This document shows positions 18,373-48,004 of a stretch of 64,000 nucleotides of DNA, one piece after another. The notes beneath the pieces were generated by a model. That model did not search any database and had not been told where the DNA came from. It saw only the letters and a list, made by a program, of their open reading frames with translations. Position 1 is the stretch's first letter, and the number at the start of each line of letters is the position of its first letter. The translations under genes were made by a program, and so were the position numbers. The stretch is from Crocinitomix sp. (GTDB lineage Bacteria; Bacteroidota; Bacteroidia; Flavobacteriales_D; Crocinitomicaceae), in assembly GCA_013138735.1 (NCBI GenBank), contig WTCE01000100.1, forward strand, positions 62,001 to 126,000, read 5' to 3'.

Positions 18373-21300
18373 ATGTTTTCTTCTATGTATAAATTTTACG
18401 CACTAGTACTCGCTCTTTTATTTTTAAGTACCACTAATATAGTCGCAGCTCAGGCTCCAACTTGCGGAGAGGATGTGCCGTATTTCCCAGTTGATTTAAC
18501 TGGGTCGCCGGATAGTGTTTGGGTTTCGCCCTCGCATAGTAGATCAGATAATTGTTGTGGAACAACTTCGCCAGATAGATGTACTTCTTTTGAGATAATT
18601 CTAGATGCGAATGCAGCCATGATTAATTTTGAAATTGCTTCAGGTGCAATACCTCCTGGTTCTATGTTCTATCAAATTGATTGTGGTCCTGAAACTCCTG
18701 TTGGTGATGCAATTTGCCTTGAAGGCATTGGGCCACATCACTTAACATTTTGTAAGCCTGGTAACAATGAAAATTCATATCGAATAACTTCAATTCCTGA
18801 ACCAATTTTTCCAGATGATGACTCAACACGTATTGGATGTACACTTCCATTAGAGATACAAGGATTAGAAAGTATCACTATTAATTCAGTTTTTCCTGGA
18901 GCTCCGGGAGATTATAACAGCTTTTTAAGCTGTACTGATTGCGCTACACCTGGATTTGCTCCTGGTTTGGGAGCTCCAGCTTTTATTGATTATGAGATAT
19001 GCGGAACACCAATTGCCTCAATTTGTGGATATGTCTATGAATGCGCTACAGTAAGATTGTATGCATTTGCGGAATTGGATGGATCAGTTACACCTAATCC
19101 GGCTTCATTTTGTAGTGGCGGAACAGGTGTTCCTATGGTTGTTACAGGTATAGGTGGAGATACCGATTATTCTTTTGAATGGTTCAATAGTGCTGCCGTT
19201 AGTGTAGGTGTAGGGGCTGCTTATAATGCTACCTCAGAAGAAAATTTTACAGTAGAAATAAGTGATGGCTTAAACAGTGCAACTTGTCCTTCAAAATATA
19301 TAACGGTTCCAGTAACGGTAGGAACTCCTCCTGCAGTAGATGCTGGTCCACCTCAAGTGGTTTGCGCTAATGATCCTATAATTTATTTAGATGGTGCTGT
19401 TTCTGATGCAAGTGGTGGTGTTTGGACTGGAGGGGCAGGATCCTTCTTCCCTGACAATACTACATTATTTGCTTCTTATACACCATCTGCTGGTGAAATC
19501 ACTTCAGGTTCAGTGACGCTTACGTTGACCTCGGTTGGCGCTGGTGGGGGATGTTCTGAAGCATCAGGTATGATTACGATTACGTTTTCTGACACAATGG
19601 ATGTTGCCTTTACTACACCAACATTGTTGTGTAATAATTCAATAGGGGCTTTAACAGCAAATGTATCTAGCGGAATAGCTCCATACACGTTTTTATGGAA
19701 TACGGGTGAATCTACAAACTCAATACTTGCAACTGAAGGAGCATATTGGATTGATGTAACAGATGATGTTGGTTGTATTCACACGGAGGCTATTTTTATT
19801 TCTGCTCCAGCAGCTCTTGGTTTAACCCTTAGTAGTACAGACGTTACTATTGATGGCGGAAGTGATGGAACGGCAACTGCGGTTGTTTTTGGAGGAACAC
19901 CTTCATATTCTTATTTATGGAGTAATGGAGATGTGACACCTACAGCAACGGGCTTAAGTTATGGGATTGCAACTGTAACAATTACTGATGCTAATGGTTG
20001 TACAATTACAGAAAGTGTAGTTGTAAACGAACCACAATGCAGTAGTTTTAGTGTTTCTGCAATTTTCACGAATGTGTCTTGTTTTGGAGGTGATGATGGA
20101 ACTGCAACAGCCACAGCTAGTAGTGGATTCGCGCCTTATACTTATAGTTGGAATACAGATCCGGTAACGCTGGGTTCTATTGCAACAGGACTCTCTTCTG
20201 CAAGTTTCACTGTTACAGCTACTGATTTTAATGGCTGTGTTCGTTTAGAAACTGTTTCAATATCAGAGCCTTCTCAAATTACAAACGCTATGACTTGGAC
20301 AAATGTTCCTGTTATTGGCGAGAATACGGGTACAGCTACTGCAAATCCGTCAGGTGGAACACCTGGATATGCCTTTATCTGGTCACCAGGTGGCGAAATA
20401 ACTGCGCCAATAATCAGTCTGTTTGCAGGTACTTATTACGTTGATATTACAGATGCAAATCTGTGTACTATTTCTGATAGCGTTCTAATCACAGAACCAC
20501 CATGTAATAATTTCAATATTGGAATTGTCGGTATCAATGTGTTGTGTGCAGGAGATAGTAATGGCTCAGCAACAGTATATACCGCTCATGGAACTGCTCC
20601 TTATACGATTCTATGGAGTGATGGACAAACCACAGCAACCGCGACAGATTTAGCAGCTGGGTTTTATTCCGTAACGGTAACCGATTCTTCTAATTGTACG
20701 GTTTTTGATAACATTACAATTACAGAACCTACTCCTTTGAGTATTGGTTTAACACCAGGTGCAGTCAGTTGTTTTGGTGCGGGAGATGGGACTATAGATT
20801 TAGTAGTAACAGGAGGTGTTTATCCTTACATATTTTCATGGAGTACAGGTGGCCAAATAATTGGCGAGTCTGAAGATTTGGTAAATCTTGAACCAGGTAC
20901 ATATTCTATTATAGTTACAGATGCAAATGGCTGCGTTACTGAAAGTTCAGTAGGGATTACACAACCCGCACAGCTTGTAGCCACGTCTACTAAAATTAAT
21001 GCGAGCTGTAATGGTTTTTCTGATGGTTCAATTGATGCTGATGTAGTAGGTGGGACTCTACCATATATTTATGCATGGACAGGACCAGCTCTTTTTACGG
21101 CAGCAACAGAAGATATTACAGGATTAGAATCAGGACTTTATAGCTTCTTAGTAGCAGATGCAAACGGATGTACGCTGACAGCTCCTCACGAAGTATATAT
21201 CAATCAACCGGATTCTGTTATTATACATACTATAACTACTGAATGCCCCGTTCCCGGAGACTTATTTACTACCGTAACAGTGGATAGTATTACAGGAGGA

Positions 21301-24300
21301 TCCGAAACATTATATAATTTTTCATTTGATAATGGTGTAACTTATGAAGGGTTGGGTGTGTTAAGCGTTGACCTTCTTATAGGAGCAACATACTCCGTTG
21401 TTGCTGTTGATGATAATGGTTGCTCAACATTTGCTCCTCCCTTTAGTTTAACGATCGATCCTGCAGTTGTTATAGATGCTGTAACTTTTGATCCATGCAT
21501 AGCTGAGTTAGTAACAGATATTCCTGTAACAATAACCGTTTCCGGAGGTGATGGAGGTCCTTATGAAGTTTCTAGTGATAATGGACTTACTTTTAATGCG
21601 CCTGGAACAATGACTATAAACTTACCAATTGGTACTGTATACCATATTGTTGTTAGAGATACAAAAGGTTGTCTATCTACTGAATTTGAAATCACCCTTC
21701 CTGTTGAACTAATTGTGTCTGGAGAAATTCAGAGCGAAGTAGGTTGTCTTGGTGGATCAGACGGTAGTATTAGTCTCACTGTTACAGGTGGAGTTAGTCC
21801 ATACACATATAGTTGGACAGGACCTGACCTATTTACTTCAACATCAGAAGATATTTTTGGATTAATTGAAGGAACATACCTAGTTACAGTTACTGATGAT
21901 AGTAGTTGTACAGGAAGTACTTCTGTTTTGTTAACCACAATAGTTGATGAAACACTCCCGACAATAACTTGCCCTGGAGATGTAAGCTTAAACAATGACC
22001 CAGGTGTTTGTGGTGCAATTGTTACATATTCAACTCCAATAGGTAGTGATAATTGTCCGCTAGGTACAAATACTGTATTAACAGCCGGTTTGGCAAGCGG
22101 CGCATCTTTTCCTGTGGGAATAACTACTGTTACATATACGGTTACAGATAGTGCTGGCAACACAGCAAGCTGTAGTTTTGACGTAACAGTTGTTGATAAT
22201 GAAAACCCAACAATAATATGTCCAGCTGATATTGCAGCAGATAATGACCCTGGCGTTTGTGAAGCCGGTACAGTAGTACTTGGTGCACCAACTACAGCAG
22301 ACAATTGTGGCGTTGCATCTGTTACAAATGATGCGCCGGCTACATTCCCTGTTGGAACAACAACAGTAACATGGACAGTGACAGATGAGAATGGTAATAC
22401 AGCAAATTGTACACAGGATGTTGTTATTACTGATATTGAAGATCCGATAATAATATGTCCAGCTGATGTCGCTGTAGATAGTGATCCAGGAGTTTGTGAA
22501 GCGGGAGATGTGGCGCTAGGAACACCGACTACAGATGATAATTGTGGTGTAGCAACGGTAACGAATGATGCCCCTCTAGTTTATCCTATTGGTACTACAG
22601 TAGTAACATGGACGGTTACAGACGATAATGGTAACATTGCTATTTGTACACAGAACATTGTAGTTACTGACAATGAACTTCCTACAATGATTTACTGCCC
22701 TACAGATACTGCTACATGTTTTGCTGTTGTAAATTACGAAATGCCAATGGCGACAGACAACTGTGGAATAGCATCCATAGTACAAACGAGTGGTTTAGGA
22801 CCTGGAGCTACTTTCACCGTAGGAACAACAACAGAAGAGTACGAAATAACAGATGTTAATGGTAATATCACAATTTGCAGTTTCGATATTACGATACATT
22901 CTACACCAGTTGCTTCAACTACAGGAGAGGACGTGACATGTAATAGTTACGCTGATGGAGCAATTGACTTAACAGTAGCTGATGGTACAGCACCTTTTGA
23001 TTTCTCTTGGAGTTCAGGAGAAATTACTGAGGATTTAATTGATCTTGGTCCAGGAACTTATGATGTGACTATAACGGATGATAACGGCTGTATCGCAACT
23101 GCATCTTATACGATAGGTCAGCCTGATACAATTTCAATTATTGAAACACATATTAATGTATCATGTTATGGTTTTGATGATGGGTTAATCGATATTGTGG
23201 CAATGGGAGGGACAACGCCGTACTCATACTTATGGACTACAGGCGAAACATTGCCAAATATAGATACGTTAATCGCTGGCACTTATGATTTAACATTAAC
23301 TGACGCCAACGACTGTGTGTATGATTTGTCGGTAGAAATTACTGAACCAGATTCCCTTTATGCGAGTTCAACAACTATTGATGCCACTTGTTTGAGTGAA
23401 GATGGGGTTTTAGACCTGACAGTTTATGGAGGAGTGATCCCATATGACTACACATGGTCAAATGCGGATACAACGCAAGATTTAGATAGCATTCCTTCCG
23501 CAATGTATACGGTAATTATAGTTGATGCGAATGGGTGTGAGTTGATATATTCAGATAGTGTAGGCTTTACGAATCCGTTGGCGATCAATGCCAATATCAT
23601 AGACCCACTATGTTTTGGAGACACAACAGGTATCATTGAAGTAAGAATGATAGGTGCAGTTGCTCCGATTATATATAATTGGTCAACAGGAGATACTACT
23701 GCTACTTTGACAAATGTTACCGCAGGCGATTATACGCTTACAGTTACTGACAGCAATGGTTGTGAAATTAGTTCAACATATTCATTAATTGAACCAGACT
23801 CGCTTTATCTTGATTTATATAGTCCTGAGGATGAATTTGGATACAATATCACCACGTTTATGGGCGAGGACGGATGGATAGATTTAACGGTTTATGGTGG
23901 AGCACCAGATTATCTTTACCTATGGTCAGATGGTTCAACTTCTGAGGATATCGAAGACTTAACTGCGGGGCTTTATTCGGTTCTTGTTACAGATCTTAAT
24001 GGTTGTACCGTAACAGGAAGTATAGATTTGATTCAGCCACTTACGCTGGAAATGCCAACTGGATTTACTCCTAATGGTGATGGTTATAACGACTTCTTTG
24101 TAATTAACGGACTAGATATATTTCCGAATAATGAGATTGTAATTTATAGCCGTTGGGGAAATATAGTTTATTCGCAATCAGATTATGCGAACGAATGGTA
24201 CGGAAATAACAATGCAGGAAAAGAACTTCCAGATGGAACCTATTATGTGATTTTAACAATCGACGGATTGGACCCCATGACAGGTTATGTTGATCTTAGA

Positions 24301-24312
24301 AGAAAGAGGTAG
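18373..24312 (+). CDS. giant SprB-repeat/HYR surface adhesin with gliding-associated type B C-terminal domain
   Basis: This 1979-residue secreted protein starts with a signal peptide (ALVLALLFLSTTNIVAAQA); an ATG at 18385 is also possible. A Cys-rich unique region fills about 25-250. From about 408 to 1190 there are repeats of the SprB type, pattern CxGxxDGxxxxxxxGGxxPYxYxW followed by LxxGxYxVxVTDxxGC. About 13 such units are counted overall. Residues about 1192-1510 hold four HYR-like domains (PTITCPGDV, PVGTTTVTWTVTDENGN), then more SprB units to about 1885. The end (MPTGFTPNGDGYNDFF, IYSRWGNIVY, LPDGTYYVILTI) is the gliding-motility-associated CHU_C/type B sorting domain. It is presumably a cell-surface adhesin exported by type IX secretion with the SprF-like protein next door. 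Confidence 0.92.
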   Translation: MFSSMYKFYALVLALLFLSTTNIVAAQAPTCGEDVPYFPVDLTGSPDSVWVSPSHSRSDNCCGTTSPDRCTSFEIILDANAAMINFEIASGAIPPGSMFYQIDCGPETPVGDAICLEGIGPHHLTFCKPGNNENSYRITSIPEPIFPDDDSTRIGCTLPLEIQGLESITINSVFPGAPGDYNSFLSCTDCATPGFAPGLGAPAFIDYEICGTPIASICGYVYECATVRLYAFAELDGSVTPNPASFCSGGTGVPMVVTGIGGDTDYSFEWFNSAAVSVGVGAAYNATSEENFTVEISDGLNSATCPSKYITVPVTVGTPPAVDAGPPQVVCANDPIIYLDGAVSDASGGVWTGGAGSFFPDNTTLFASYTPSAGEITSGSVTLTLTSVGAGGGCSEASGMITITFSDTMDVAFTTPTLLCNNSIGALTANVSSGIAPYTFLWNTGESTNSILATEGAYWIDVTDDVGCIHTEAIFISAPAALGLTLSSTDVTIDGGSDGTATAVVFGGTPSYSYLWSNGDVTPTATGLSYGIATVTITDANGCTITESVVVNEPQCSSFSVSAIFTNVSCFGGDDGTATATASSGFAPYTYSWNTDPVTLGSIATGLSSASFTVTATDFNGCVRLETVSISEPSQITNAMTWTNVPVIGENTGTATANPSGGTPGYAFIWSPGGEITAPIISLFAGTYYVDITDANLCTISDSVLITEPPCNNFNIGIVGINVLCAGDSNGSATVYTAHGTAPYTILWSDGQTTATATDLAAGFYSVTVTDSSNCTVFDNITITEPTPLSIGLTPGAVSCFGAGDGTIDLVVTGGVYPYIFSWSTGGQIIGESEDLVNLEPGTYSIIVTDANGCVTESSVGITQPAQLVATSTKINASCNGFSDGSIDADVVGGTLPYIYAWTGPALFTAATEDITGLESGLYSFLVADANGCTLTAPHEVYINQPDSVIIHTITTECPVPGDLFTTVTVDSITGGSETLYNFSFDNGVTYEGLGVLSVDLLIGATYSVVAVDDNGCSTFAPPFSLTIDPAVVIDAVTFDPCIAELVTDIPVTITVSGGDGGPYEVSSDNGLTFNAPGTMTINLPIGTVYHIVVRDTKGCLSTEFEITLPVELIVSGEIQSEVGCLGGSDGSISLTVTGGVSPYTYSWTGPDLFTSTSEDIFGLIEGTYLVTVTDDSSCTGSTSVLLTTIVDETLPTITCPGDVSLNNDPGVCGAIVTYSTPIGSDNCPLGTNTVLTAGLASGASFPVGITTVTYTVTDSAGNTASCSFDVTVVDNENPTIICPADIAADNDPGVCEAGTVVLGAPTTADNCGVASVTNDAPATFPVGTTTVTWTVTDENGNTANCTQDVVITDIEDPIIICPADVAVDSDPGVCEAGDVALGTPTTDDNCGVATVTNDAPLVYPIGTTVVTWTVTDDNGNIAICTQNIVVTDNELPTMIYCPTDTATCFAVVNYEMPMATDNCGIASIVQTSGLGPGATFTVGTTTEEYEITDVNGNITICSFDITIHSTPVASTTGEDVTCNSYADGAIDLTVADGTAPFDFSWSSGEITEDLIDLGPGTYDVTITDDNGCIATASYTIGQPDTISIIETHINVSCYGFDDGLIDIVAMGGTTPYSYLWTTGETLPNIDTLIAGTYDLTLTDANDCVYDLSVEITEPDSLYASSTTIDATCLSEDGVLDLTVYGGVIPYDYTWSNADTTQDLDSIPSAMYTVIIVDANGCELIYSDSVGFTNPLAINANIIDPLCFGDTTGIIEVRMIGAVAPIIYNWSTGDTTATLTNVTAGDYTLTVTDSNGCEISSTYSLIEPDSLYLDLYSPEDEFGYNITTFMGEDGWIDLTVYGGAPDYLYLWSDGSTSEDIEDLTAGLYSVLVTDLNGCTVTGSIDLIQPLTLEMPTGFTPNGDGYNDFFVINGLDIFPNNEIVIYSRWGNIVYSQSDYANEWYGNNNAGKELPDGTYYVILTIDGLDPMTGYVDLRRKR

Positions 24313-24344
24313 AAAGAAGAAAGTAAGAGTTTAAAAAGATTATT

Positions 24345-25274
24345 ATGAAAAAATTAAATATAATTTTAATGCTAGTATTGCTGACTTCGGCCAATTTATT
24401 CGCGCAGCAAGAAGCAATGGTAAGTCAGTACATGTTTAACGGGCTATACATTAATCCTGCTTATGCAGGAAGTCAAGAGAACTTCTCCACGACAATGCTT
24501 TTTAGAAAGCAATGGGTGAGATTTGATGGAGCCCCATCTACATTTACCGCTTCTGTTGACGGTCCTTTAGCAAATAATAAAATGGGAATTGGCTTTACTT
24601 TTTCTCATGACCAAATTGGTGTTCAAAAACAAACTGATTTTGGGGCAAATTATTCTTACAACATAAAACTTGGGCAGGGTAAATTAGCCTTTGGGATAAG
24701 AGCTGGCCTTTCTACTTTTCGCGCTTCAGTTTCAGAATTAACTTACTGGGATTTAGACGATCCAATTTATTCGCCAGGTGATATTAAAGGCGTCACTGTT
24801 CCAAGGTTTGGATTTGGTATTTATTATTTCGTAAAAGATAAATGGTATGCAGGATTTTCAATTCCTACATTAATGGGGCATGAAAAAGGACTTGGGTTTT
24901 CAATGAATATTGATAAAAGCTCTTATTTGAGACGTCACTATATGTTAACGGGTGGTTACGTTTTTTCAGCTTCAGAAAATATTAAATTAAAACCATCAGT
25001 GTTGTTTAAATACATTCCTAGTGCTCCTTTTCAAGCTGACATCAACTTCAGTGTAATGTTCAAAGACATGATTTGCGCAGGCCTATCTTTTAGAACAGGT
25101 GATGCTCTTGTAGCCATGATTGAATACCAAGCTAGTAACAGTTTTAGAATTGGTTACGGATATGATATTACAGTTTCAAAACTCAGGAATTACTCAAGTG
25201 GTTCACACGAGATTATGATTGGATATGATTTCGGAAAAGAAAACACTGCTATCAAAACACCCAGATATTTTTAA
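24345..25274 (+). CDS. PorP/SprF-family type IX secretion membrane protein
   Basis: The 309-residue product has a signal peptide (MKKLNIILMLVLLTSANLFA, then QQ) and the family opening QEAMVSQYMFNGLYINPAYAGS. Typical motifs follow: FRKQWVRFDGAPSTFTASVDGP, MGIGFTFSHDQIGVQ, and the end RIGYGYDITVSKLRNYSSGSHEIMIGYDF. In Flavobacterium, SprF-type proteins are needed for secretion of adhesins with type B sorting domains. This copy sits 32 bases after such an adhesin, so it is the likely dedicated partner. It is an outer-membrane barrel. A second family member is encoded at 41600-42592. Confidence 0.93.
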   Translation: MKKLNIILMLVLLTSANLFAQQEAMVSQYMFNGLYINPAYAGSQENFSTTMLFRKQWVRFDGAPSTFTASVDGPLANNKMGIGFTFSHDQIGVQKQTDFGANYSYNIKLGQGKLAFGIRAGLSTFRASVSELTYWDLDDPIYSPGDIKGVTVPRFGFGIYYFVKDKWYAGFSIPTLMGHEKGLGFSMNIDKSSYLRRHYMLTGGYVFSASENIKLKPSVLFKYIPSAPFQADINFSVMFKDMICAGLSFRTGDALVAMIEYQASNSFRIGYGYDITVSKLRNYSSGSHEIMIGYDFGKENTAIKTPRYF

Positions 25275-25291
25275 TTCAATAAAATTTTACA

Positions 25292-27178
25292 ATGAAATTA
25301 ACTTACGGCTTACTATTCTATATTGCCACAATCCTTGTTTTATCTTCTTGTGGTGCAAATTATCATTTTAAAAAAGGAGATACGCATTACGATTATTTGC
25401 GCTATGCAGAGGCTATCGAGAGTTACGAAAAGGGTTTAAAAAACGATAGAGATCCTAGATATGTTGAGTATTTGGCAAATGCATATTTCTTCTCAAATAA
25501 AATAAACGCTGCAAAGCCTTTATATGAAGAACTCTTAAAGAGTAATAAAGGAAGTGTGACGGTTCATTTGAATTATGGACGAGTTCTAATGACTCAAGGG
25601 GACTATGATGAGGCTATTGTCCAGTTCAACGAGTTCTTGAAAGATCATCCAAATGATGTTGTGGCGGGAATGTTGGTAGCTTCTTGTTATTCAATTAACG
25701 AAAGGTTTAGTGATACTACTTTATATGAGATTTCGGAAATCCCATCTGGTGATTTTACTGGAGCCTTTAGTCCAACAGAGTACAGAGAAGGATTAGTGTT
25801 TTCTGCTGAAAAGGAAGTTTTTAAAGGGAACAAGCAAAATCCATGGACAGGGAATTCTTACCTAGATCTTTATTATATCGAAAAAGATCAGAACGGAAAC
25901 TGGCTATCACCTGAATTATTAAACGGGGATATTAACGGTCGTTTTCATGAAGGTCCAGCAACTTTCTCTACTGATGGAAGCACTGTATATTTTACGCGCA
26001 GTAACTATTACAAGAAAAAAATGCTAGAAAGTCAAGAAGATGAGAATAATTTAAAAATTTTCAAAGCAACTTTAGTTGAAGACAAATGGACAAATCTTGA
26101 AGAACTACCATTCAATAGTGATGACTATTCCTGTGGACACCCCACTTTATCTCGTGATGGAAATACGATTTATTTTGTTTCTGACAAACCGGGAGGATAT
26201 GGAAGTACAGATTTATATAAATCTACTTTGACGGATGGCGTTTGGGGAGAACCAGTTAATCTTGGTGAGGAGTTAAATACACCTGGTAATGAAATGTTCC
26301 CGTATATCCATACGGATGGAACCTTGTACTTTTCTTCAAATGCGCATAATTCAATGGGAGGGTTAGATGTATTTATCACTTACAATTACAATGATAGATG
26401 GATGAAGCCCGAAAATTTGAATTATCCATTAAATACAAATAAAGATGATTTTGGCTTTATCTTAAGTATGGATAATGTTACTGGGTTTGTTTCTTCTACA
26501 CGCACAAATGAGGATGAATTGTACAAATTCGAAAAGCATAAGCCCACATTTAATTTATACGGCTTTGCACATATGATTGGTACAGAAACACCAGTTGAAG
26601 GAGTACGTATTGAAATAACTAGAGCTAGCGATAACAAGGTAATAAGTATGGTTAGTGATGCTGATGGTAAATTCAGTTACAAGCTTGATACAGAAGAAAC
26701 TTATAATTTGTATTGCACAAAAATTGGATGTTTTGCTAGAACAGATGAAATTTCAACTGTTGATTTGAAGTATTCACAAGACTTTTATGCGAATTTTGAA
26801 GTAGAAGAAATTATTATTGACAAGCCAATAGTTTTAGAGAATATATACTACGACTTTGATGAATGGAGTATTCGTGAAGATGCCGCAATTGAGTTAAACA
26901 AACTAGTTAGGATCCTTAAAGACAACCCTAGTATTCATATTGAAATGGGATCTCATACTGATGCAAGAGGAACGGATAGTTATAATCTTGTTTTGTCCGA
27001 TAAAAGAGCAAAAGCTGCAGTTGAATATCTAATTAGTCAAGGAATCTCAGCTGATCGTTTAACCTGGAAAGGTTATGGTGAAACAGTTCCATTGAACGAT
27101 TGTATAAACGGTGTTGAATGTGAGGATGATGCACATCAGTTAAATCGAAGAACAGAATTCAAAGTAAAAAAGAAATAA
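25292..27178 (+). CDS. PorE-like OmpA-family lipoprotein (TPR, PD40, OmpA)
   Basis: This 628-residue lipoprotein (lipobox LSSC) has, in order: TPR-like helices at about 25-140 (RYAEAIESYEKGL, LAGYFFSNKINAA-type pairs), PD40/WD40-like strands at about 150-390 (GLVFSAEKEVF, GSTVYFTRSNYY, NTIYFVSDKPGGYGSTDLY, GTLYFSSNAHNSMGGLD), a small carboxypeptidase-regulatory-like domain at about 405-490, and an OmpA peptidoglycan-binding domain at about 510-628 (YYDFDEWSIREDA, GSHTDARGTDSYNLVLSDKRA, NRRTEFKV). The domain order is that of PorE of Porphyromonas, which tethers the type IX system to peptidoglycan. It follows the SprF-like gene by 17 bases and ends the operon at a strong terminator. Confidence 0.88.
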   Translation: MKLTYGLLFYIATILVLSSCGANYHFKKGDTHYDYLRYAEAIESYEKGLKNDRDPRYVEYLANAYFFSNKINAAKPLYEELLKSNKGSVTVHLNYGRVLMTQGDYDEAIVQFNEFLKDHPNDVVAGMLVASCYSINERFSDTTLYEISEIPSGDFTGAFSPTEYREGLVFSAEKEVFKGNKQNPWTGNSYLDLYYIEKDQNGNWLSPELLNGDINGRFHEGPATFSTDGSTVYFTRSNYYKKKMLESQEDENNLKIFKATLVEDKWTNLEELPFNSDDYSCGHPTLSRDGNTIYFVSDKPGGYGSTDLYKSTLTDGVWGEPVNLGEELNTPGNEMFPYIHTDGTLYFSSNAHNSMGGLDVFITYNYNDRWMKPENLNYPLNTNKDDFGFILSMDNVTGFVSSTRTNEDELYKFEKHKPTFNLYGFAHMIGTETPVEGVRIEITRASDNKVISMVSDADGKFSYKLDTEETYNLYCTKIGCFARTDEISTVDLKYSQDFYANFEVEEIIIDKPIVLENIYYDFDEWSIREDAAIELNKLVRILKDNPSIHIEMGSHTDARGTDSYNLVLSDKRAKAAVEYLISQGISADRLTWKGYGETVPLNDCINGVECEDDAHQLNRRTEFKVKKK

Positions 27179-27315: not shown

Positions 27316-27513
27316 CTAATTTAATAGATGTAAATCCTGCTTAGCAGGATATAAATCCAATATTTGATCGCTGAATATGGGGTCAATTTTAACGGTTTTC
27401 ATCTCACTGAAGTCATAAATAGTTTCTACATAAAAACCATAAATCTCGTAAAGAGAGACTAGAAACTTCCGCTCACAAATTCTTCTTGTAAGAAATTGCC
27501 CATCTTTTTGCAT
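27316..27513 (-). CDS. small hypothetical protein
   Basis: A 65-residue frame from the ATG at 27513 begins MQKDGQFLTRRICERKFLVS and contains YEIYGFYVETIYDFSE. It lies 22 bases after the stop of the acyltransferase fusion gene on the same strand, with an A-rich leader like its neighbours, and ends before the terminator. A longer frame to 27570 would overlap the upstream gene. The alternating charged/aromatic composition is protein-like and recalls short uncharacterised Bacteroidota proteins, but I recognise no family. It may be a real cotranscribed small gene. Confidence 0.5.
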   Translation of the reverse strand: MQKDGQFLTRRICERKFLVSLYEIYGFYVETIYDFSEMKTVKIDPIFSDQILDLYPAKQDLHLLN

Positions 27514-27535
27514 TAGTTTAATTTTCGATCTGACA

Positions 27536-29989
27536 TTAAACAGGCAAAACTCCTCTATCGTTAGTACCATAATTTATAAGCTTTTTATCTTTTTGAGTTG
27601 AAATTGTATTAAGTGCTTCCATATTATAATTATCCTTGGCCTGAACATATGCGCAAGAACCTTTTATTTTAGCACCGAATTTTTTCTTCTCAATAATTGC
27701 TGAGAATCCTAACGGTACAATGCCATTTTTAAGTTCTTTCCCACGTTTTATTACCTGATACATTGCTTGTCTGTAAACATTGTACTCGTAATTTTTATCG
27801 TAATCAATTCCTACAATTAACCCGTTGTAAAGATTTTCAGTTTTGTATGCAAAAACAACGCCAACAGGTTCGTTCTTATCTGAATTCTTCAACGATAGAA
27901 CTATGAATTCCCAGTTTTCCGAGGTCACCATTTGTTTGAAAAATTTAAATGGAAGTTCGAAAGTGTTGAGGTCGAGGCTGTTTTGTTTTACATTCAAATA
28001 TAGTTGATAATAATTAAAAATTTCTAATTCGGTCGGTGTATTTACAATTGAAATGTTGAAATCGTCTTCAAATCGTCTAATGTTTTCTCTAAAATGTCTT
28101 TTAGATCGAGTTGATAAAGAGTTATAGAATTCTTCTTCTCCAGCCCAATTCCCTTCTTCTACAAACGCCGAATCAGGCATGCCAATTTTGAAAAAGCTGT
28201 TATCCATCATTAATCCATCCATTTCTCGATCGTCCGAATTTAAATCTCTGATTATAATATTACTGGCATCATACCTGTTTTGCAATTCTTCAAGTTTGTT
28301 CATGAGCATGATAATTGCTTTTTTCCAATCATCATTTTTCTTATTCAAATATAAATGATCCCCCTCGGTCATAGGTGAACCAACAGTAAGTGTCTTAGAA
28401 GTGAGATAAAATGGATCTGCTACCCTCCTTCTTTCAACTTCTGTGGAGATATAATTAGGCATTAACATGTCATCTTTTAATATTGCCAGCGTTGTGAATG
28501 TGGCTAGGACTATTTCGCCAGAATTATCCCTGACGACTATGTAATCAAATTCCCAGTTATCTTGTTTTTCCTTATTGCTTTTAAATGAGTTTTCTAATAT
28601 CTGTAGATATTCAGCGTCAAAAGCTCCTCGAGCTCCCAATAAATTGTTCCATTCTGTATGGTTAATTTCTGCGATTGACTTGAATATCGTTAAGTTTAGC
28701 GAGTCAAGCTTCTTTTCTGTAACTGGTTTTGTGAATTTTTGTTCAATTCTGAACGCTTTATAGATTTGTTCTATCGAATAATCAGCTTCTTCAATAACTA
28801 GTGGAAAATGTTTAGCCATAGATTCAACCATTTGTTCAATTTGTTCAAATGTGTGAAGCCTAGTAATCGTAAATCTAACCCCTGTATTTTTTATTGGCAC
28901 CGCTGGAAAGATTCCTAAATTAAGGTAGTGACCGTCTTTCATCATTTTTTCAATGAGATTATAACCAATTTTGGGCAAGCCCACTGCTATAAAGAAGATT
29001 GGTGATGTCTCTTCAGATAGGTTTGGCAATCCATGGCGCTTTAACGCAAGATTGGTATAACGAATATTTTCCTGTAAATCTTCTTGAAGTTCTGTAATTT
29101 GATCAGATAGATGGATGTTTGCTGAAGCAATTGCGGCTCCAAGCGCACTCGGTTGCATTGGTCCTGATGTGATTAACGATCCACCGCAGTTTCTAACTCG
29201 TTGGGCGACTTCTTTATTTGGGAATATTAGTGCGCCTCCACCGGTAGCAAATGCTTTAGCAAATGAAGTGGCAACGATCATTCTATCATGAATCTTTCGT
29301 CCGTTAAGAACAAAGCCTCTTCCGTTTTCACCAAAACAGCTCATGGCGTGTGCATCATCAACGTAAAAATTGAATTCTGGATACTTATCGAGTAATCTGT
29401 ATACTTCATCAATCGGCACCGTATCACCGAACATGGAATAAATTCCGTCGGCCATGTACCATATTTTGTCGTATTGCCCTTTTAACTCTAGGATTCTTTT
29501 TTCTAAAAGGTCCATTCTGTTATGTCTCACTAATTCAACATGGATTTTTTTAGCTTTTAATTGATTTGCAGCTGTTTGAACAGAGCTATGCACTTGATGA
29601 TCTAAAATAACTGCGTCATTTTGATTGATTAATACAGGTAGGGCAGCTTGGTGTCCTAAAGTTGTAGTAGCTGTTACAATAGTAGGACTTCCAAATATTT
29701 GACTTAATTTGTCCTCTAGTTCTACATAGAAAGCGGGAGACATATAAGCTCTAGATGATGAGAATTGAGTTCCATAGGCGTCTATAGCATCTTTTGCGCC
29801 ATTTCTTAGTGATTCGTTAAATTCTAAGCCTAAATAACTGCATGACCCAAAATTCACTAGTTTTTGCTGGTTTACGGTAATGATATTATTTTCTAATTTG
29901 GAGTCCTCGGTTGCTAAATGAATAATCCCTCGATCTTTGGCATGGTTGATAATTTGATCGACCGTTTCTATTGTTGATTTTTGACTCAT
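27536..29989 (-). CDS. fusion of PLP-dependent alpha-oxoamine synthase and FemAB/GNAT-like acyltransferase
   Basis: From the ATG at 29989 the product is 817 residues. Residues about 45-400 match the alpha-oxoamine synthase family (2-amino-3-ketobutyrate CoA ligase, BioF, serine palmitoyltransferase). Motifs: NFGSCSYLGLEF, LDHQVHSSVQ, the cofactor Asp in YVDDAHAMSCFGENGRG (Asp211/Asp212, His214), and the likely PLP lysine 245 in SFAKAFATGGGAL. Residues about 430-817 form an acyl-CoA N-acyltransferase-like half: HTEWNNLLGARGAFDAEYLQ, RSKRHFRENIRRFEDDF and GIVPLGFSAIIEKKKFGAK. The first half condenses an acyl-CoA with an amino acid; the second may N-acylate a product. The frame to 30055 adds only nonconserved residues. 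It is cytosolic or membrane-associated. The substrate is not known. Confidence 0.82.
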   Translation of the reverse strand: MSQKSTIETVDQIINHAKDRGIIHLATEDSKLENNIITVNQQKLVNFGSCSYLGLEFNESLRNGAKDAIDAYGTQFSSSRAYMSPAFYVELEDKLSQIFGSPTIVTATTTLGHQAALPVLINQNDAVILDHQVHSSVQTAANQLKAKKIHVELVRHNRMDLLEKRILELKGQYDKIWYMADGIYSMFGDTVPIDEVYRLLDKYPEFNFYVDDAHAMSCFGENGRGFVLNGRKIHDRMIVATSFAKAFATGGGALIFPNKEVAQRVRNCGGSLITSGPMQPSALGAAIASANIHLSDQITELQEDLQENIRYTNLALKRHGLPNLSEETSPIFFIAVGLPKIGYNLIEKMMKDGHYLNLGIFPAVPIKNTGVRFTITRLHTFEQIEQMVESMAKHFPLVIEEADYSIEQIYKAFRIEQKFTKPVTEKKLDSLNLTIFKSIAEINHTEWNNLLGARGAFDAEYLQILENSFKSNKEKQDNWEFDYIVVRDNSGEIVLATFTTLAILKDDMLMPNYISTEVERRRVADPFYLTSKTLTVGSPMTEGDHLYLNKKNDDWKKAIIMLMNKLEELQNRYDASNIIIRDLNSDDREMDGLMMDNSFFKIGMPDSAFVEEGNWAGEEEFYNSLSTRSKRHFRENIRRFEDDFNISIVNTPTELEIFNYYQLYLNVKQNSLDLNTFELPFKFFKQMVTSENWEFIVLSLKNSDKNEPVGVVFAYKTENLYNGLIVGIDYDKNYEYNVYRQAMYQVIKRGKELKNGIVPLGFSAIIEKKKFGAKIKGSCAYVQAKDNYNMEALNTISTQKDKKLINYGTNDRGVLPV

Positions 29990-30211: not shown

Positions 30212-30595
30212 ATGGAGGATTTTTCTTTTGAGTCGGAGTTTTATAATTTTAAGTACGAAAAGGGGATCTTTTTCGGTACTTACATTAGTGGTCCGATCAC
30301 TCTAGAAGTCGCTAAAAGTCTTGTTTCTGATCGATTAAGGCTAACTAATTCAAAGTCTGTTTTGATGCTCGTGACAGTGAAAGATCTTAAAGGTATGGAT
30401 AGAGAAGCTCGAAGTTATCTGTCTTCAGAGGAGGGGATTAAGGGAGTTAAGGCTGGCGCTATTGTCGTCAAATCTCCTTTCACTACTCACATGGCCAACT
30501 TTTTCATGAAAATATCATTCAATAAGTCAAAAATGCCTGCTAAAGTCTTTTCACATGAGGAAGAAGCGATTATCTGGCTAAGAAAATTTGAATAA
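30212..30595 (+). CDS. SpoIIAA/STAS-like small protein (DUF7793-type)
   Basis: The 127-residue protein has no signal or membrane segment. Features: an N-terminal strand pair (FESEFYNFKYEKGIFFGTYI), then a helix and strand (SKSVLMLVTVKDLKGMDREARSYLSSEEGIKGV), then AGAIVVKSPFTTHMANFFM and a C-terminal EEEAIIWLRKFE. This alpha/beta layout and the phrase DREARSYLSSEE are like Bacteroidota STAS/SpoIIAA-fold proteins often annotated DUF7793. Such proteins may regulate by protein-protein contacts; no partner is known here. The gene is divergent from the acyltransferase fusion and stands 300 bases before the histidine kinase. Confidence 0.6.
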   Translation: MEDFSFESEFYNFKYEKGIFFGTYISGPITLEVAKSLVSDRLRLTNSKSVLMLVTVKDLKGMDREARSYLSSEEGIKGVKAGAIVVKSPFTTHMANFFMKISFNKSKMPAKVFSHEEEAIIWLRKFE

Positions 30596-30764: not shown

Positions 30765-30894
30765 TTCTTTAAGGAAATTTTGTACTTCCACTACAATGGA
30801 TAATTAAAAACGGGAATAATTCCCCCAAACAACGCGCTAAAACGAGATTATTTTGTTTCTTTGTGAAACCCTACTCGTTAAAAGAAGATTTTCT

Positions 30895-32067
30895 ATGGAG
30901 AAATCGCAAATTGACGAAATAAGTGACCTTTTACTATCCTACTCTGCAGGAGACTACCACGTTAAGGGCGAAATTTCTGGAAATTTTGATGACATAGATA
31001 TGATAATTTCAGGCATTAATATGCTTGGAGAAGAGTTGCGTTCAACAAACGTGTCTAAAGAATACTTTAGTAGTATCTTTAATGCGGTTACCGATTTGGT
31101 AATGATTGCTGACGAAAATGGTTATTTGATTGATATTAATCAATCTGTATTGAGCTTATTAGGTTATAATGAGGAGGAGTTGTTGAAGAATTCATTTTTG
31201 AATTTACTAGCTGACCCCAAATCTTCACTTTTTAAGAAAGTAAAAAGAAACCTTAAAGGGAAGAATAAGAATTTCGTTGTTGAGTCAGAGTTGATAACGA
31301 AAAGTAAAAAAGTTGTTTTTGGATTGTTCACGTGCTCAAAGATATTTGACCGCAACGGAGAATTTAAAGGCTACTTGATAAGTGTTAAAGACATAACAGC
31401 ACAAAAAGAGAATGAAAAGTTGATTTTGAAAACGATCATATCAACGCAAGGAGCTGAGCAAAGGAGGGTGGCGGATGATTTGCATGATTCGCTTGGACAG
31501 GAATTGTCTATGGCGCAGTTGATGCTCTCGAACTTTAGTAGATTTGAAGTAGCGGATAAAGAGTATTACAACTTATTGGAACTATGTAATGAGATTTTAG
31601 AAAATTCAATTACGCATTTGCGCGAAATTTGCTTTGATTTAATGCCAAATGTATTGGTCAAAGGAGGTTTAGAACAAGCGGTTGAAACACTAGTTGGTAA
31701 ATTAGAAAGCGCAGATAAAATTGAAATAGATTTTGTTAGTACAGAAAATTTCCCTAGATTATTTTCTGAATTGGAGATTGTTATATATAGAATCATACAA
31801 GAATTTATAAATAACATGATTAAACATTCAACAGCTAATAAGTTGAATATTCACCTTATTGAGCATGATGATAAGGTGGAAATAACATTGTCTGAAAACG
31901 GCCAAGGTTTTGATTTGGTCAAATTAGAAAATGTTGGAGACAATAGAGGAATAAGTAATGTAAGAACAAAAGTATTAGCTTATAACGGCGAATATAAATT
32001 AAAAAGTGAACCCGGAAAAGGAACAGAACTCTGGGTAGAATTTCCCAAAAAAGAAAAAGATGAATAA
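30895..32067 (+). CDS. soluble PAS-domain sensor histidine kinase (HisKA_3 type)
   Basis: From the ATG at 30895 the product is 390 residues. A short N-terminal region precedes a PAS domain (about 58-170: FSSIFNAVTDLVMIADENGYLIDIN, LLGYNEEELL, FKGYLISVKDIT). The HisKA_3 dimerisation domain follows, with the phosphoacceptor His197 in RRVADDLHDSLGQELSMAQ. The ATPase domain (about 290-388) has its N box at YRIIQEFINNMIKHS, and a G1 box reading SENGQGF where most family members have DNGxGF. No membrane segment is present, so it senses a cytosolic signal. The stop overlaps the response regulator gene by 8 bases, making them a cognate NarX/NarL- or DegS/DegU-type pair. Confidence 0.9.
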   Translation: MEKSQIDEISDLLLSYSAGDYHVKGEISGNFDDIDMIISGINMLGEELRSTNVSKEYFSSIFNAVTDLVMIADENGYLIDINQSVLSLLGYNEEELLKNSFLNLLADPKSSLFKKVKRNLKGKNKNFVVESELITKSKKVVFGLFTCSKIFDRNGEFKGYLISVKDITAQKENEKLILKTIISTQGAEQRRVADDLHDSLGQELSMAQLMLSNFSRFEVADKEYYNLLELCNEILENSITHLREICFDLMPNVLVKGGLEQAVETLVGKLESADKIEIDFVSTENFPRLFSELEIVIYRIIQEFINNMIKHSTANKLNIHLIEHDDKVEITLSENGQGFDLVKLENVGDNRGISNVRTKVLAYNGEYKLKSEPGKGTELWVEFPKKEKDE

Positions 32068-32731
32068 AATTAAAATTTTAATTGCAGACGATCATAAACT
32101 GGTTCGAACTGGAATTAGGTATACCTTGAATGGGGGTGAAAATGCAAATTTCATTGACCGTATTGATGAGGTGATGAATGGTAAAGAGGCGGTCGAAAGA
32201 GCTAAAATTTTCACTTATGACATCATTTTGATGGATATTAATATGCCAGAAATGGATGGAATTAAGGCTACAGCTCAAATAATGAGAGAAAATTCGGATG
32301 CTAAAATTATTGCACTTTCAATGCATAGTGATGACTATGAGATTCGAAGTATGATTAAAGCTGGAGCAAAAGGTTATTTGCTTAAAAATACTGGTTCCGA
32401 AGTTCTAGCTGAAGCGATCAAAACGGTTTTGGATGGTGGGAAATATTATAGCAACGAAGTTGCCCTAAAATTAATGGAACCATATGCAGGAGATTTGTCA
32501 ACTGAAAAAAGAAGTTCGAGTAGAATTGACAAAAGAAAAATTTCATTGACCCGAAGAGAATTGGAAGTTTTAAGGATGATTGCTAATGAGTTGACGAACG
32601 AAGAGATTGCGAAAAAGTTTGAATTAAGTAAGCGAACAATTGATTCACACAGACAAAATATTTTAAGCAAACTCCAAGTTAAGAACACTGCTGGATTAAT
32701 CAAATATGCTATCCGCCTAGGACTAGTATAA
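32060..32731 (+). CDS. NarL/FixJ-family response regulator
   Basis: The 223-residue protein has a receiver domain at about 1-125 (ILIADDHKLVRTG, phosphoacceptor Asp59 in DIILMDINMPEMDG, Ser/Thr site in IIALSMHSDD, Lys in GAKGYLLKN) and a LuxR-type helix-turn-helix at about 155-223 (LTRRELEVLRMIANELTNEE, KRTIDSHRQNILSKL, GLIKYAIRLGLV). It is coupled by overlap to the PAS kinase. It is a likely transcriptional activator; targets cannot be inferred. Confidence 0.95.
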   Translation: MNKIKILIADDHKLVRTGIRYTLNGGENANFIDRIDEVMNGKEAVERAKIFTYDIILMDINMPEMDGIKATAQIMRENSDAKIIALSMHSDDYEIRSMIKAGAKGYLLKNTGSEVLAEAIKTVLDGGKYYSNEVALKLMEPYAGDLSTEKRSSSRIDKRKISLTRRELEVLRMIANELTNEEIAKKFELSKRTIDSHRQNILSKLQVKNTAGLIKYAIRLGLV

Positions 32732-32943: not shown

Positions 32944-33384
32944 TTGAAAAAAGCAATAGTCATTATCCAAACCGAAAATGGAGAACATAAATCTTCCATT
33001 ATTCGAACTATTAGCCAAATTCTTATTGGTCTAAATGAAAAGACAATCATAAATGTTGGAGAACTCGGCTTAAGCGAAAATATTGCTTCAATTGTCGAGA
33101 TAGATCATCTAAAAATTGGAATAGCAAGTCAGAATAATAACGCAGACGATTCCTTAAATATGCTGACACTTTTGAGCAATAAGAAATGTGATGTCATTCT
33201 TGGCGTAATTAAAAAGGCTCCTAAGAATTTTCAAGAAATTGAAGATTTCGGTAAAAATAATGATTTTCATGTCATTTCTCTTAAAAGCAATTGGTCAGAA
33301 AAATTAGAGGTAAATTATTTAACGGAAGAACAAGTAGCATTGATCCTGAAAGAAATAGAGCGCGTTAAAAATTGCGAAGATTAG
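32944..33384 (+). CDS. hypothetical protein with degenerate P-loop-like start, TTG start codon
   Basis: The 146-residue frame opens at a TTG; the only ATG choices are internal and an in-frame stop lies at 32932-32934. It starts KKAIVIIQTENGEHKSSIIRTISQILIG, an arrangement of strand, loop and helix like an NTPase P-loop but without GxxxxGK[ST]. The rest alternates strands and helices (KIGIASQNNNADDSLNMLTLL, CDVILGVIKK, FHVISLKSNW) and ends in a helix. It may descend from a small P-loop or ParA-like fold. Its last 4 bases overlap the convergent moaA end. The 212-base upstream gap shows only short dyads such as GGGTTTTAACCC. Function unknown. Confidence 0.6.
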   Translation: MKKAIVIIQTENGEHKSSIIRTISQILIGLNEKTIINVGELGLSENIASIVEIDHLKIGIASQNNNADDSLNMLTLLSNKKCDVILGVIKKAPKNFQEIEDFGKNNDFHVISLKSNWSEKLEVNYLTEEQVALILKEIERVKNCED

Positions 33385-42592: not shown

Positions 42593-42772
42593 GTCAAATA
42601 TGGCTTTTGTGATCCATAATCACTTCAACTCAGACTTACGATACGACTTCATGCAAATAAAGGTTACATATATCGAAATCTTTCGCAAGATTTGCAATAA
42701 TAATTAATTTAGTTCGTTTTTAAAACAAAATTGGCATCACATTTTAGAAATATAACGCTTGCAACTCTCAAA

Positions 42773-45700
42773 ATGAAAAATATAATTCTCTTTATTACGC
42801 TCTTTTGTTCCAGTTTTGGCTGGTCGCAAACATTCAACTTTACCTTTGAAACCCAATGGGTCGCTCATGAAAACCGTTGCATCCCCTGTGACTATAATGA
42901 GGTAAATGGTGAAGTAATCTCAACAATTACGAAACAAATAAAAGTTCGTGGTAATTATGAGTTCACATATAATATTGAAAATGTTAAATATGAAACGGTT
43001 GAGCTCCCTTCATTTTACGATAAAAATGTATTACCGTCTGAAGCGGACTTGAGTGTAACTTTTGGAGAATCGCGCCAAGAGAATTTTATTACCTTAGTTT
43101 ATAATCCAATCGTTAATCGAAACGGGAAAATAGAAATGTTAAAGGAGATAGAGATTTCTGTTAGTGGTGCTCCAAATTTTGAGAGTCAGAATAGAGATTT
43201 TGATTTTGCATCTGTTTCTGTCCTTGCTTCTGGTGATTGGTATAAAATTGGTGTCTCATCTGATGGTGTCCATAAGATTGATTATAGTGATTTGGCTGAC
43301 ATGGGAGTTGCAGTTGGTTCATTGAATCCAAATGCAATTAATGTTTATGGAAATCAAATTGCTGAATTGCCCCATACGAACTGGGCAGCTCGTCCTGATG
43401 ATTTGCTGAAAAATTCAATTGAAGTTGTTGGTGATGGAGATGGATCGTTTGATACAGAGGACTATGCCTTGTTTTATGCAAAAGGTCCTGAAAAACTAAT
43501 CATTAATTCATCTGATTTCTATCCAAGAAAAAATAAGATTGATTCTTTGAACTATTATTTTATTCATATTGATAACGCAGACATCCCTAAAAGGATTGGA
43601 ACAGTTAATAATTCGGCAGACCCGGTGAATGATGAAGTGACTTCTTATAACTCATACGCCTTGCATGAAAATAACAATGTAAACCTATTAAAATCTGGAG
43701 ACGGATGGTATGGCGAACACTTTGAGGGCTCAAGCTTAACGAGCAGCTTTTCAATTAACGCAGAAAATAGAGTTCTTTCGGAGCCCATTTTTTTAGAGAC
43801 GAAGTTTGTCTGTAAAAGTAAATCGGGGAGTTCGGGTTTAATTGTGAACGTGAATGGCGCAGAAGTGGACAATATAGCGGCAGGAAATGTTTCTGGAAGT
43901 TATACCGTGGCAACGAATGAAGGAAATTCAGTTGATTTTAATTCTGGAACCGAAAATATTAATGTTGATTTAACTTTTTATAGAACATCCGCCTCAGCCG
44001 AAGCTTGGCTCGATTATATGGAGTTTAATTACATTAAAAAATTACAAATGGGTGTTAATCAATTATTGATTCGAGATTTACGTAATGTAGGTTCTGGAGT
44101 TGTAAAGCGATATAACATGGCAGGTTCAAATGCAAGTACGAACGTTTGGGAAATTACGGATGGGATAAACGCTAAAAAAGTAAATGGAAATTTAAGTGGT
44201 TCTAACTATACGTATATTATGGATGCAGATACTTTACGGTCATTTGTTGCATTCAATGTTGCGCAAACTAAAAGTGTAATTATCACGGGCAATTATTTAG
44301 GTAAAATAGCTAATCAAAACTTACATGGTTTACCTCAGGCAGATTATGTAATTGTTTCGCATGAATCATTGCGTTCACAGGCAGACAGATTAGCGAATTT
44401 ACACCGAGCAAATGGCTTGTCTGTTCATGTAGTTGATATTCAAACAATTTATAATGAATTTAGCAGTGGGGTTTCAGATCCTGTGGCAGTAAGATGGTTT
44501 GCGAAAATGTTTTACGATCGCGTAGCAGTTGATCCCGATAATACCTTAAAATATCTTTGTCTTTTCGGAGATGGTACTTATGACCCACTTAACCGAATTG
44601 CTAATAATAACTACCTCTTACCAACCTATAATAGTCCAGAGTCTGGTCCTGTAGATTATATTTCTTCATTCACAGCTGATGATTTCTTTGGTTTGTTAGA
44701 TGATCTTGAATCTATGTCGGCAACAGATATGTTGGATATTGGTATTGGAAGAATTCCAGTGTCGGATCTAGAGAAGGCCGAACAAGTGGTTGATAAAATT
44801 CAACATTATATGAATTATGGATCAACATTATATAGCAATACTTCAGGTATCCAATGCGATTCAGATGGCTATGCTTCTACATTTGGAGATTGGCGAAATA
44901 GAATTGTGCTAATGGCAGATGACGAAAATAACGGTCAGTTTGTTTCAGATTGCGAGTCATTGAGCGATACAACGTTTAAATATCATCCAGAAATTAATGT
45001 GGTAAAGATATATTTAGATGCCTATAAACAAACAGTTACTTCTGGTGGGCAAAGATATCCTGATGTTGAAGAAGCCATAAATCAAAACATGAATAAAGGC
45101 GCTTTAGTCTTTAATTATGTTGGGCATGGAGGAGAAACAGGACTTTCGCTAGAACGTGTTGTATCTATTCCAATGATTCAAAATTGGTCTAACATTAACA
45201 ATATGCCAATCTTTATCTCAGCAACCTGTGAGTTTAGCCGTTTTGATGATCCTGGGCGAGTGTCTGCTGGTGAAACTACTTTAACGACACCTTATGGCGG
45301 TGCTGTTGGATTGCTGACAACAACTCGCTTGGTGTACATTACCGTGAACACTATTTTAGTGCAAAATTTATATACGGAATTATTCAGTGAAGAAGATGGG
45401 GAGCCATTAGGTTTAGGAGAAATCATTCGTCGCACAAAAAATTTAACACTAGGTAGTAATAATATGCGGAATTTCACTTTACTAGGAGATCCTGCATTAA
45501 AACTAGGTAAAGCCGGCCCACGAATTATGACGGATGAAATTAATGGGGTGGATGTTTCAATGGTGACCGATACCTTAAAAGCACTTTCTAAAATTACGGT
45601 AACAGGTCATGTTGAAAATGATGCTGGAACTTTATTGAGTGGTTATAATGGACTAGTTTATCCTACAGTATTTGATAAACGCAAAACACGCTATACGCTT

Positions 45701-46777: not shown

Positions 46778-48004
46778 ATGAAAAAAAGTATTGCTTATAT
46801 CGCAACAGTATTCTTTACAATTTCCGGATTTTCGCAAACTGTATCGAAAGATGAAACGGAATTTACAATTCAGTTGAATACTATTACAACTGCAGTTCCA
46901 TTTTTAATAATAGCGCCCGACTCTAGAGCAAGTGCTATGGGAGACGCTGGTGCTGCGACATCTCCAGGGCCAAATTCTTTTCATTGGAATACGTCTAAAT
47001 TGGCTTTTTCAAAAGAAAAATCTGAATTTGGAGTATCTTATTCTCCATGGTTAAAACAATTGGTTGATGATATTCATTTATCTTATTTAAGTGGATATAC
47101 TAAGGTTGGTAAAAATCACACTTTTGGAGGTTCAATGCGTTATTTCTCTTTAGGTAATATCACCTTTACAGATGATCAAGGGAATTTAATTCGTGAGTTT
47201 AGTCCGAATGAATTTGAATTATTAGGTGGATATGCGTTTAAATTATCTGATAGAAGTGCAATTGGTTTCAATGGTAAATTTGTTTATTCAAATTTAACTG
47301 GAGGGATCAATGCCGGAACTACAGCTACTAAACCTGGTTTAGCTGGTGCGGTTGATTTATCTTACTCTTACTTTAATGAAGATATTGATTTAGGTGGAAG
47401 AGATGCAACATTGTCTTTCGGGACTAGTATTTCAAATATTGGAAATAAAATGGCTTATACAGTTGAAGCTGATCGTGATTTCTTACCTACGAATCTTCGT
47501 TTAGGTACTGCTTTGAACGTTAAGTTTGATGATTATAACTCTTTAACCACAACAGTTGATTTTAATAAATTATTGGTGCCTACTTTGCCCGTTAGAAATG
47601 GAGATGGCGTTATTCTTTCTGGGAAAGACAATGATGTTGGTACAACAGGTGGTATGATTCAATCTTTTTATGATGCACCAGGAAATGTTGTTGTGGCAGA
47701 AGACGGAACAGCAATTATTGAAAAAGGAAGTAGATTCAAAGAAGAGCTTAATGAAATTAACATTGGTGGTGGTTTAGAATATTGGTATAGCGACGTATTA
47801 GCGATTCGCGGTGGATACTTCTATGAACACAGAGCAAAAGGTGATCGTAAATACTTCACGTTTGGTGCAGGAATTTACTACAGTGTATTTGGTATTGATG
47901 TATCTTATTTAGCTGCGCTAAAAAGAACCAATCCATTAGCTAACACGGTTCGTTTTTCACTTAAATTCAAATTCGGTAACAACAAAATTGCGAGTGCCGA
48001 GTAA
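46778..48004 (+). CDS. porV: type IX secretion outer-membrane shuttle protein PorV
   Basis: The 408-residue FadL-like barrel protein has a signal peptide (MKKSIAYIATVFFTISGFS) and the PorV opening LNTITTAVPFLIIAPDSRASAMGDAGAATSPG. Also seen are WNTSKLAFSKEKSEFGVSYSPW, NLTGGINAGTTATKPGLAGA, FYDAPGNVVVAEDGT and the barrel end ANTVRFSLKFKFG. PorV binds folded clients at the translocon and carries them to PorU. It follows porU by 183 bases and has its own promoter and leader. Its 3' end overlaps ispF. Confidence 0.93.
   Translation: MKKSIAYIATVFFTISGFSQTVSKDETEFTIQLNTITTAVPFLIIAPDSRASAMGDAGAATSPGPNSFHWNTSKLAFSKEKSEFGVSYSPWLKQLVDDIHLSYLSGYTKVGKNHTFGGSMRYFSLGNITFTDDQGNLIREFSPNEFELLGGYAFKLSDRSAIGFNGKFVYSNLTGGINAGTTATKPGLAGAVDLSYSYFNEDIDLGGRDATLSFGTSISNIGNKMAYTVEADRDFLPTNLRLGTALNVKFDDYNSLTTTVDFNKLLVPTLPVRNGDGVILSGKDNDVGTTGGMIQSFYDAPGNVVVAEDGTAIIEKGSRFKEELNEINIGGGLEYWYSDVLAIRGGYFYEHRAKGDRKYFTFGAGIYYSVFGIDVSYLAALKRTNPLANTVRFSLKFKFGNNKIASAE

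Follow-up and report, generated by a model that had tools for sequence, protein, structure and literature searches.

A fused alpha-oxoamine synthase/FemABX-like double-GNAT protein of a Crocinitomix-like bacterium and its DUF7793 and two-component neighbours

Alpha-oxoamine synthases (AOSs) start the synthesis of sphingolipids, sulfonolipids, haem and biotin, and make the quorum-sensing signals of the CqsA and LqsA systems. What, then, is the role of an AOS fused to a second, acyltransferase-like half? The question is raised by a gene in a 64,000-nucleotide stretch of DNA (hereafter the window) from a Crocinitomix-like member of the Flavobacteriales. The original prediction was a one-protein sphingolipid or sulfonolipid enzyme, possibly connected with gliding. 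The features of the window on which the argument turns are the following.

27536..29989, minus strand: fused AOS/FemAB-like double-GNAT protein, 817 residues (open reading frame, Pfam, homologs)
28790..29989, minus strand: AOS half, about residues 1-400 (PLP Lys245; Cys50 and Gly276 at the positions of SulA Asn53 and Lys281)
27539..28717, minus strand: predicted FemABX-type double-GNAT half, about residues 425-817 (predicted structure, and Pfam in relatives)
27316..27570, minus strand: small open reading frame of 84 residues that overlaps the fused gene at its 3' end (five relatives have a similar frame)
30212..30595, plus strand: DUF7793 (PF25056) protein with a predicted STAS fold, 127 residues (Pfam, model, conserved neighbourhood)
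30853..32067, plus strand: soluble histidine kinase, PAS - HisKA_3 - HATPase_c (Pfam)
32060..32731, plus strand: LuxR-type response regulator (Pfam), overlapping the kinase gene by 8 bases

The predicted fusion of an AOS to a second half is borne out: positions 27536-29989 hold one intact, stop-free frame of 817 residues on the minus strand. The mechanical open reading frame begins at a TTG 22 codons upstream of the ATG; the homolog of Crocinitomix algicola, the nearest named relative by this protein (73% identity), begins at the same ATG as the 817-residue form. Among 200 genomes of the family, 31 encode fused homologs, spread over 10 of 24 genera and numbering as many as three paralogs in a single genome; a few other genera of Flavobacteriia have them too. 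The gene is therefore neither a chance nor an assembly join. The fusion is probably already annotated in RefSeq, under the label 'bifunctional aminotransferase class I/II-fold PLP-dependent enzyme/GNAT family N-acetyltransferase'. A limited literature search, covering few subscription papers, found no functional study of it, no paper on DUF7793 or PRK07505, and no description of a module of fused synthase, DUF7793 and kinase. The 84-residue frame at the 3' end of the gene gave no match in a Pfam search, and its membership of the fused-gene module is uncertain.

The N-terminal half is the complete PLP domain that had been predicted. PF00155, a class I/II PLP domain of the AOS kind, covers residues 43-389 (E 1.4e-23), and the PLP lysine K245 is invariant, together with H134, D211, H214 and R372, in 16 of 16 diverse homologs; the protein has the fold-type I architecture with the PLP Lys, Asp, His and C-terminal Arg of the AOS superfamily. 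In Alistipes SulA, Lys281 sets the enzyme apart from serine palmitoyltransferase (SPT), while Asn53, His140, Lys251 and Arg376 are common to both (PMC9304779). Alignment of the fused homologs with 7u7h, 28eh, 8guh and others puts Gly276 of the window protein at the Lys281 position and Cys50 at the conserved Asn53 position. The other aligned fused proteins have G, T, H or A at the former site, never Lys, and Cys, Tyr or Thr at the latter, never Asn, while the Asn of the N-x-YLGL motif is present in the SPT, SulA, KBL and BioF rows. Loss of the Asn and variability of its site suggest that the homologs use substrates other than serine and cysteate, and perhaps not all the same ones. In a maximum-likelihood tree, whose root serves for drawing only, the AOS halves of the fused proteins cluster as a single group (98/100), and the SPT, SulA, KBL and BioF rows are separated (98/100) from a set comprising the fused clade, Alb29 (8XHA) and rhizobial plasmid AOSs, the last two also without the conserved Asn. 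The SulA clade (100/100) contains no fused protein. Rows from E. coli plasmids form long branches in this tree, and one that came with the plasmid AOSs, Ecoli_L108b, has a very long branch and no AOS motifs and is to be disregarded.

Could the fused protein nonetheless be an SPT- or capnine-type enzyme that makes the sphingolipids or sulfonolipids of gliding cells, joined to its own N-acyltransferase? SPT_CFB is its second-best NCBIfam model and SPT its best PDB match; the second half lies within the FemAB_like/PF13480 superfamily, and acylation straight after condensation is the order proposed for bacteria. However, the SPT_CFB score is 180 bits for a cut-off of 640, and the other curated SPT models also stay below theirs (164/500 and 121/670); with the conserved Asn replaced by Cys50, assignment as an SPT was rejected. 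The genome encodes a dedicated SulA/CFAT elsewhere (G000:C4:28865-30136, locus L100), which has the Lys281 and Asn53 equivalents, matches 7u7h and 28eh (E ~1e-170) and is 87% identical to a relative's. The fused protein, outside the SulA clade and with no Lys281 equivalent, was likewise rejected as a SulA/CFAT. Nor is it a KBL (TIGR01822, 124 bits, cut-off 493) or a BioF (TIGR00858, 147 bits, cut-off 426), and a KBL above cut-off (L044) and a BioF-like AOS are encoded separately in the same genome. Its occurrence in just 31 of the 200 family genomes also speaks against a role in these lipids. The suggested link to gliding fails on neighbourhood: here a T9SS-type cluster at 18373-27178 sits between folC and the fused gene, whereas in two relatives (L032, L054) the cluster is absent from that place and folC adjoins the fused gene, and the gliding/T9SS genes of the left flank (PorP/SprF, OmpA-like) are thus not neighbours there. 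Active-site residues, tree position and the separate SulA together lead me to reject the sulfonolipid/sphingolipid role as very improbable. An AOS gene near gliding genes is not to be read as a sulfonolipid gene if a canonical SulA is found elsewhere in the genome. The cluster itself comprises a 1979-residue repeat-rich protein, PorP/SprF and an OmpA/PD40/TPR protein. Further along the window, tandem PorV-type genes (46778-48004 and 48561-49757), both above the cut-off of the PorV model, lie downstream of a PorU sortase gene (42731-46594).

The FemAB/GNAT fold foreseen for the second half holds, with Z of about 22-23 to FemX in the predicted structure and with family matches among its relatives. 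PF13480 covers residues 630-752 of the fused protein (E 4e-4, slightly below cut-off) and matches 23 of 27 relatives (best 1.1e-11). PF04339 (FemAB_like) matches 10 of the 27 at E <= 1 (best 2.9e-8); its gathering threshold is 27 bits, and it scores 19.2 with the C-terminal half of the fused protein and 32.6 with the paralog G000:C135. PF04339 also has a member in the genome used as a control, that of Caulobacter, which is known to make ceramides. A sequence search of the PDB with the GNAT half returned no convincing homolog. The AlphaFold model, from a 27-sequence alignment (mean pLDDT 86), is a FemABX-type tandem GNAT (Foldseek E 4e-11). It aligns with FemX (6snr; Z 23.2, rmsd 4.4 A, 304 residues), Sba18 (9wqy; Z 23.0, 2.6 A, 271 residues) and FemA (1lrz; Z 22.4, 4.8 A, 298 residues); Z spans 21-23 for the streptothricin peptide synthases Sba18 and Sbb17, FemX and FemA, and is about 17.5 for MprF and about 17 for N-myristoyltransferases. 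As modelled, the second half is a FemABX-type double GNAT, a fold that does not discriminate between an acyl thioester and a charged tRNA as donor; aminoacyl-tRNA-dependent enzymes use the FemAB fold at least as often as acyl-thioester ones. Among standalone GNAT relatives (L124-L132), no shared neighbour accounts for the second half; one of them (L125) has an acyl-CoA thioesterase gene next downstream.

The explanation that I favour, and to which I give about an even chance, is a bifunctional synthase that makes and then acylates an alpha-amino ketone, in a module with DUF7793 and a kinase/regulator. The PLP half would take an amino acid into an external aldimine and condense it with an acyl thioester, with loss of CO2, to give an alpha-amino ketone. 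The FemAB-like half would then acylate (or aminoacylate) the freed amine, the intermediate being passed on within one polypeptide. The product may be a ceramide-like or lipopeptide-like amino ketone, as distinct from capnine or a sulfonolipid and from the products of KBL and BioF. Condensation followed by N-acylation, the order originally predicted, is chemically sensible: for bacterial ceramide synthesis it is proposed that the acyltransferase works directly after the AOS step, on the keto intermediate and before reduction (PMC9304779, PMC11087976), so that an AOS-acyltransferase fusion needs no intervening reductase. For the fused protein itself I infer both reactions, with their substrates and order, as well as the connection of product to kinase.

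The DUF7793 gene and the fused gene are divergent, with 222 bp between them, where a search for Bacteroidota promoter motifs found just one lone -7-like element, on the minus strand. Its product scores 106 bits with PF25056 and 28 bits with PF11964 (SpoIIAA-like, cut-off 25). The model (pLDDT 91) aligns with the STAS protein 4xs5 (Z 12.1, 2.3 A, 108 residues) and with the SpoIIAA-like 2q3l (Z 11.4, 3.0 A, 111 residues), and the predicted fold is that of a STAS protein. In the family, a DUF7793 gene lies within 265 bp of 35 of the 42 places where a fused gene is found, 22 times divergent and 13 times directly downstream; of the seven places with none nearby, four adjoin contig ends and one is a fragment. 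Eight genomes, this one counted, carry the fused gene in an evenly drawn sample of 345 from the phylum, and all ten fused genes have DUF7793 beside them, though DUF7793 is found in only 19 of the 345. The sample includes a fused gene split by a frameshift (G113) and a genome with the AOS half alone (G095); a match in G125 was rejected as a BioF. DUF7793 has wider uses, since synthase-less copies in this genome, which carries eleven DUF7793 genes (e.g. L070-L076), adjoin unrelated genes: those examined lie beside S9 peptidase, DUF1501 and NlpC/P60 genes. A role in anti-phage defence was considered and rejected, as a PADLOC search gave no match for the synthase or DUF7793; weak CARF3 matches of the response regulator in PADLOC are confined to its HTH region.

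The kinase encoded next to DUF7793 has no predicted transmembrane segment (its listed start is a TTG, with an ATG 14 codons inside); being cytoplasmic, it would sense an internal cue. Seven genera from two families retain the block of synthase, DUF7793, kinase and regulator, with outer flanks that vary. With home-made HMMs, of which that for kinases was built partly from these same kinases, a kinase or receiver gene was found within 3.5 kb at 20 of 32 synthase loci, a count that overstates independent events since the loci are related by descent. The same distance held none at 12 comparison loci (0/5 for SulA, KBL or BioF and 0/7 for standalone GNATs) and one at 5 of 18 DUF7793 loci without synthase; at four of these five, the kinase gene is overlapped by DUF7793 or is at most 0.5 kb away. 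Synthase-less DUF7793 genes overlap or abut kinase genes at L082, L085 and L086, and at L084 the distance is 0.4 kb. Kinase types vary, which argues for a repeated association of synthase and kinase: elsewhere the regulator is a hybrid kinase (Flavobacterium) or a different HATPase protein (paralog 2). Most loci without a kinase have AraC, LuxR-type or RteC regulators, and near the synthase at L039 and L056 no regulator is recognisable. At L098 (7651-10573) a standalone AOS of the fused clade has no DUF7793 nearby, but a polytopic sensor histidine kinase is encoded 170 bp downstream of it, which is the layout of CqsA/CqsS. The tie to STAS and kinase genes suggests that the enzyme works within a regulated or signalling unit, and since the synthase belongs to the module, synthesis would be either its output or the source of the sensed molecule. 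These neighbours hint at a link of the fused gene to signalling or to a regulated product, and not to a gliding sulfonolipid. A 146-residue protein (32944-33384), whose gene separates that of the response regulator from a moaA-like gene, has no Pfam match and is kept in three relatives.

The fused family is conserved but patchy in Bacteroidota, with gain, loss and decay. This genome holds three diverged paralogs, with halves 51/33% and 45/38% identical to the window protein. Decayed or frame-shifted copies adjoin intact DUF7793 genes at L088, L089 and L097, the first two loci retaining only a remnant of the fused gene; the synthase can therefore disappear while its partner persists. At L093, L094 and L096, RteC genes, which are known from conjugative elements, directly adjoin the fused gene, so that horizontal spread is possible. 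PLSDB contained no fusion on plasmids, only standalone AOSs of 25-31% identity. One of these, on the conjugative E. coli plasmid pAMA1416 (54437-55666, L108), overlaps an MFS transporter gene, and related AOS genes are also found on Klebsiella plasmids. A PHROGs search, bearing on a phage origin of the fused gene, gave no match.

The explanation by a regulated bifunctional synthase has two narrower forms, which differ in the use made of the product. It is possible, if somewhat short of an even chance, that the product is an inducible specialised lipid or natural product, membrane-acting or antibiotic-like, that the two-component and STAS genes simply switch the synthase on, and that the FemAB half uses aminoacyl-tRNA. 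Such a role agrees with the nearest folds, among them FemX and the streptothricin peptide synthases, which depend on aminoacyl-tRNA, with the divergent arrangement of synthase and regulator genes, and with the AraC regulators that replace kinases at other loci. Alb29, an AOS of the albogrisin pathway that uses L-glutamate (PMC11906848), also falls outside the SPT/SulA/KBL/BioF group. Set against these points, no transporter or tailoring enzyme is a conserved neighbour of the fused gene. The product might instead be an autoinducer, a signal that diffuses or stays in the membrane and that DUF7793 and the kinase perceive in the manner of CqsA/CqsS and LqsA/LqsS, which I consider rather doubtful. 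An AOS-type synthase gene adjoining that of its cognate kinase is the hallmark of those systems (PMC3376566), and the recurrence of kinase/regulator neighbours of several kinds, the standalone AOS of L098 directly followed by its polytopic kinase and the variation at residue 50, as might be expected of makers of signal variants, would all fit. However, the fused protein matches the CqsA/LqsA model NF005526 weakly (70 bits, cut-off 428), the window kinase lacks a transmembrane sensor, and CqsA and LqsA have no GNAT half. An unlikely but more specific proposal is a new cell-to-cell or self-sensing system of Bacteroidota, in which the fused protein would make a fatty N-acyl amino ketone, the DUF7793 protein would bind it as STAS-fold carrier or sensor and feed the soluble kinase, and the paralogs of one genome would make and sense different molecules. 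More generally, a Bacteroidota AOS-acyltransferase fusion accompanied by a STAS protein and kinases would open up an unexplored source of lipid-like molecules and might, within that phylum, serve a signalling system based on an AOS.

How does the bifunctional synthase and its locus compare with known systems? PRK07505/NF005697 is the best NCBIfam model for the fused protein, at 254 bits, below the cut-off of 342. Alb29 and the rhizobial plasmid AOSs, which are PRK07505/NF005697-like, have the AOS fold with Cys or Tyr for the Asn and fall on the same side of the tree as the fused proteins, but they have no GNAT half, and no DUF7793 is annotated beside those examined. SulA/CFAT and bacterial SPT share with the fused protein the AOS fold, the PLP Lys, the stacking His and the carboxylate-binding Arg, whereas the fused protein has neither the Asn53 equivalent found in both nor SulA's Lys281 and belongs to a separate clade. 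Bacterial ceramide synthase (bCerS/CerS), a GNAT/FemAB-type acyltransferase, acts directly after an AOS, as the GNAT half is proposed to do, and PF04339 has its Caulobacter member; unlike the fused protein, however, it is standalone. FemX/FemA and Sba18/Sbb17 have the double-GNAT fold (Z 21-23) at 9-13% identity to the GNAT half, and act on cell-wall precursors or an antibiotic. Finally, although the CqsA/CqsS and LqsA/LqsS systems have a membrane-spanning sensor and neither fusion nor STAS partner, and although the fused protein scores far from the CqsA model, they resemble the fused locus in placing an AOS-type synthase gene beside a sensor kinase and a regulator.
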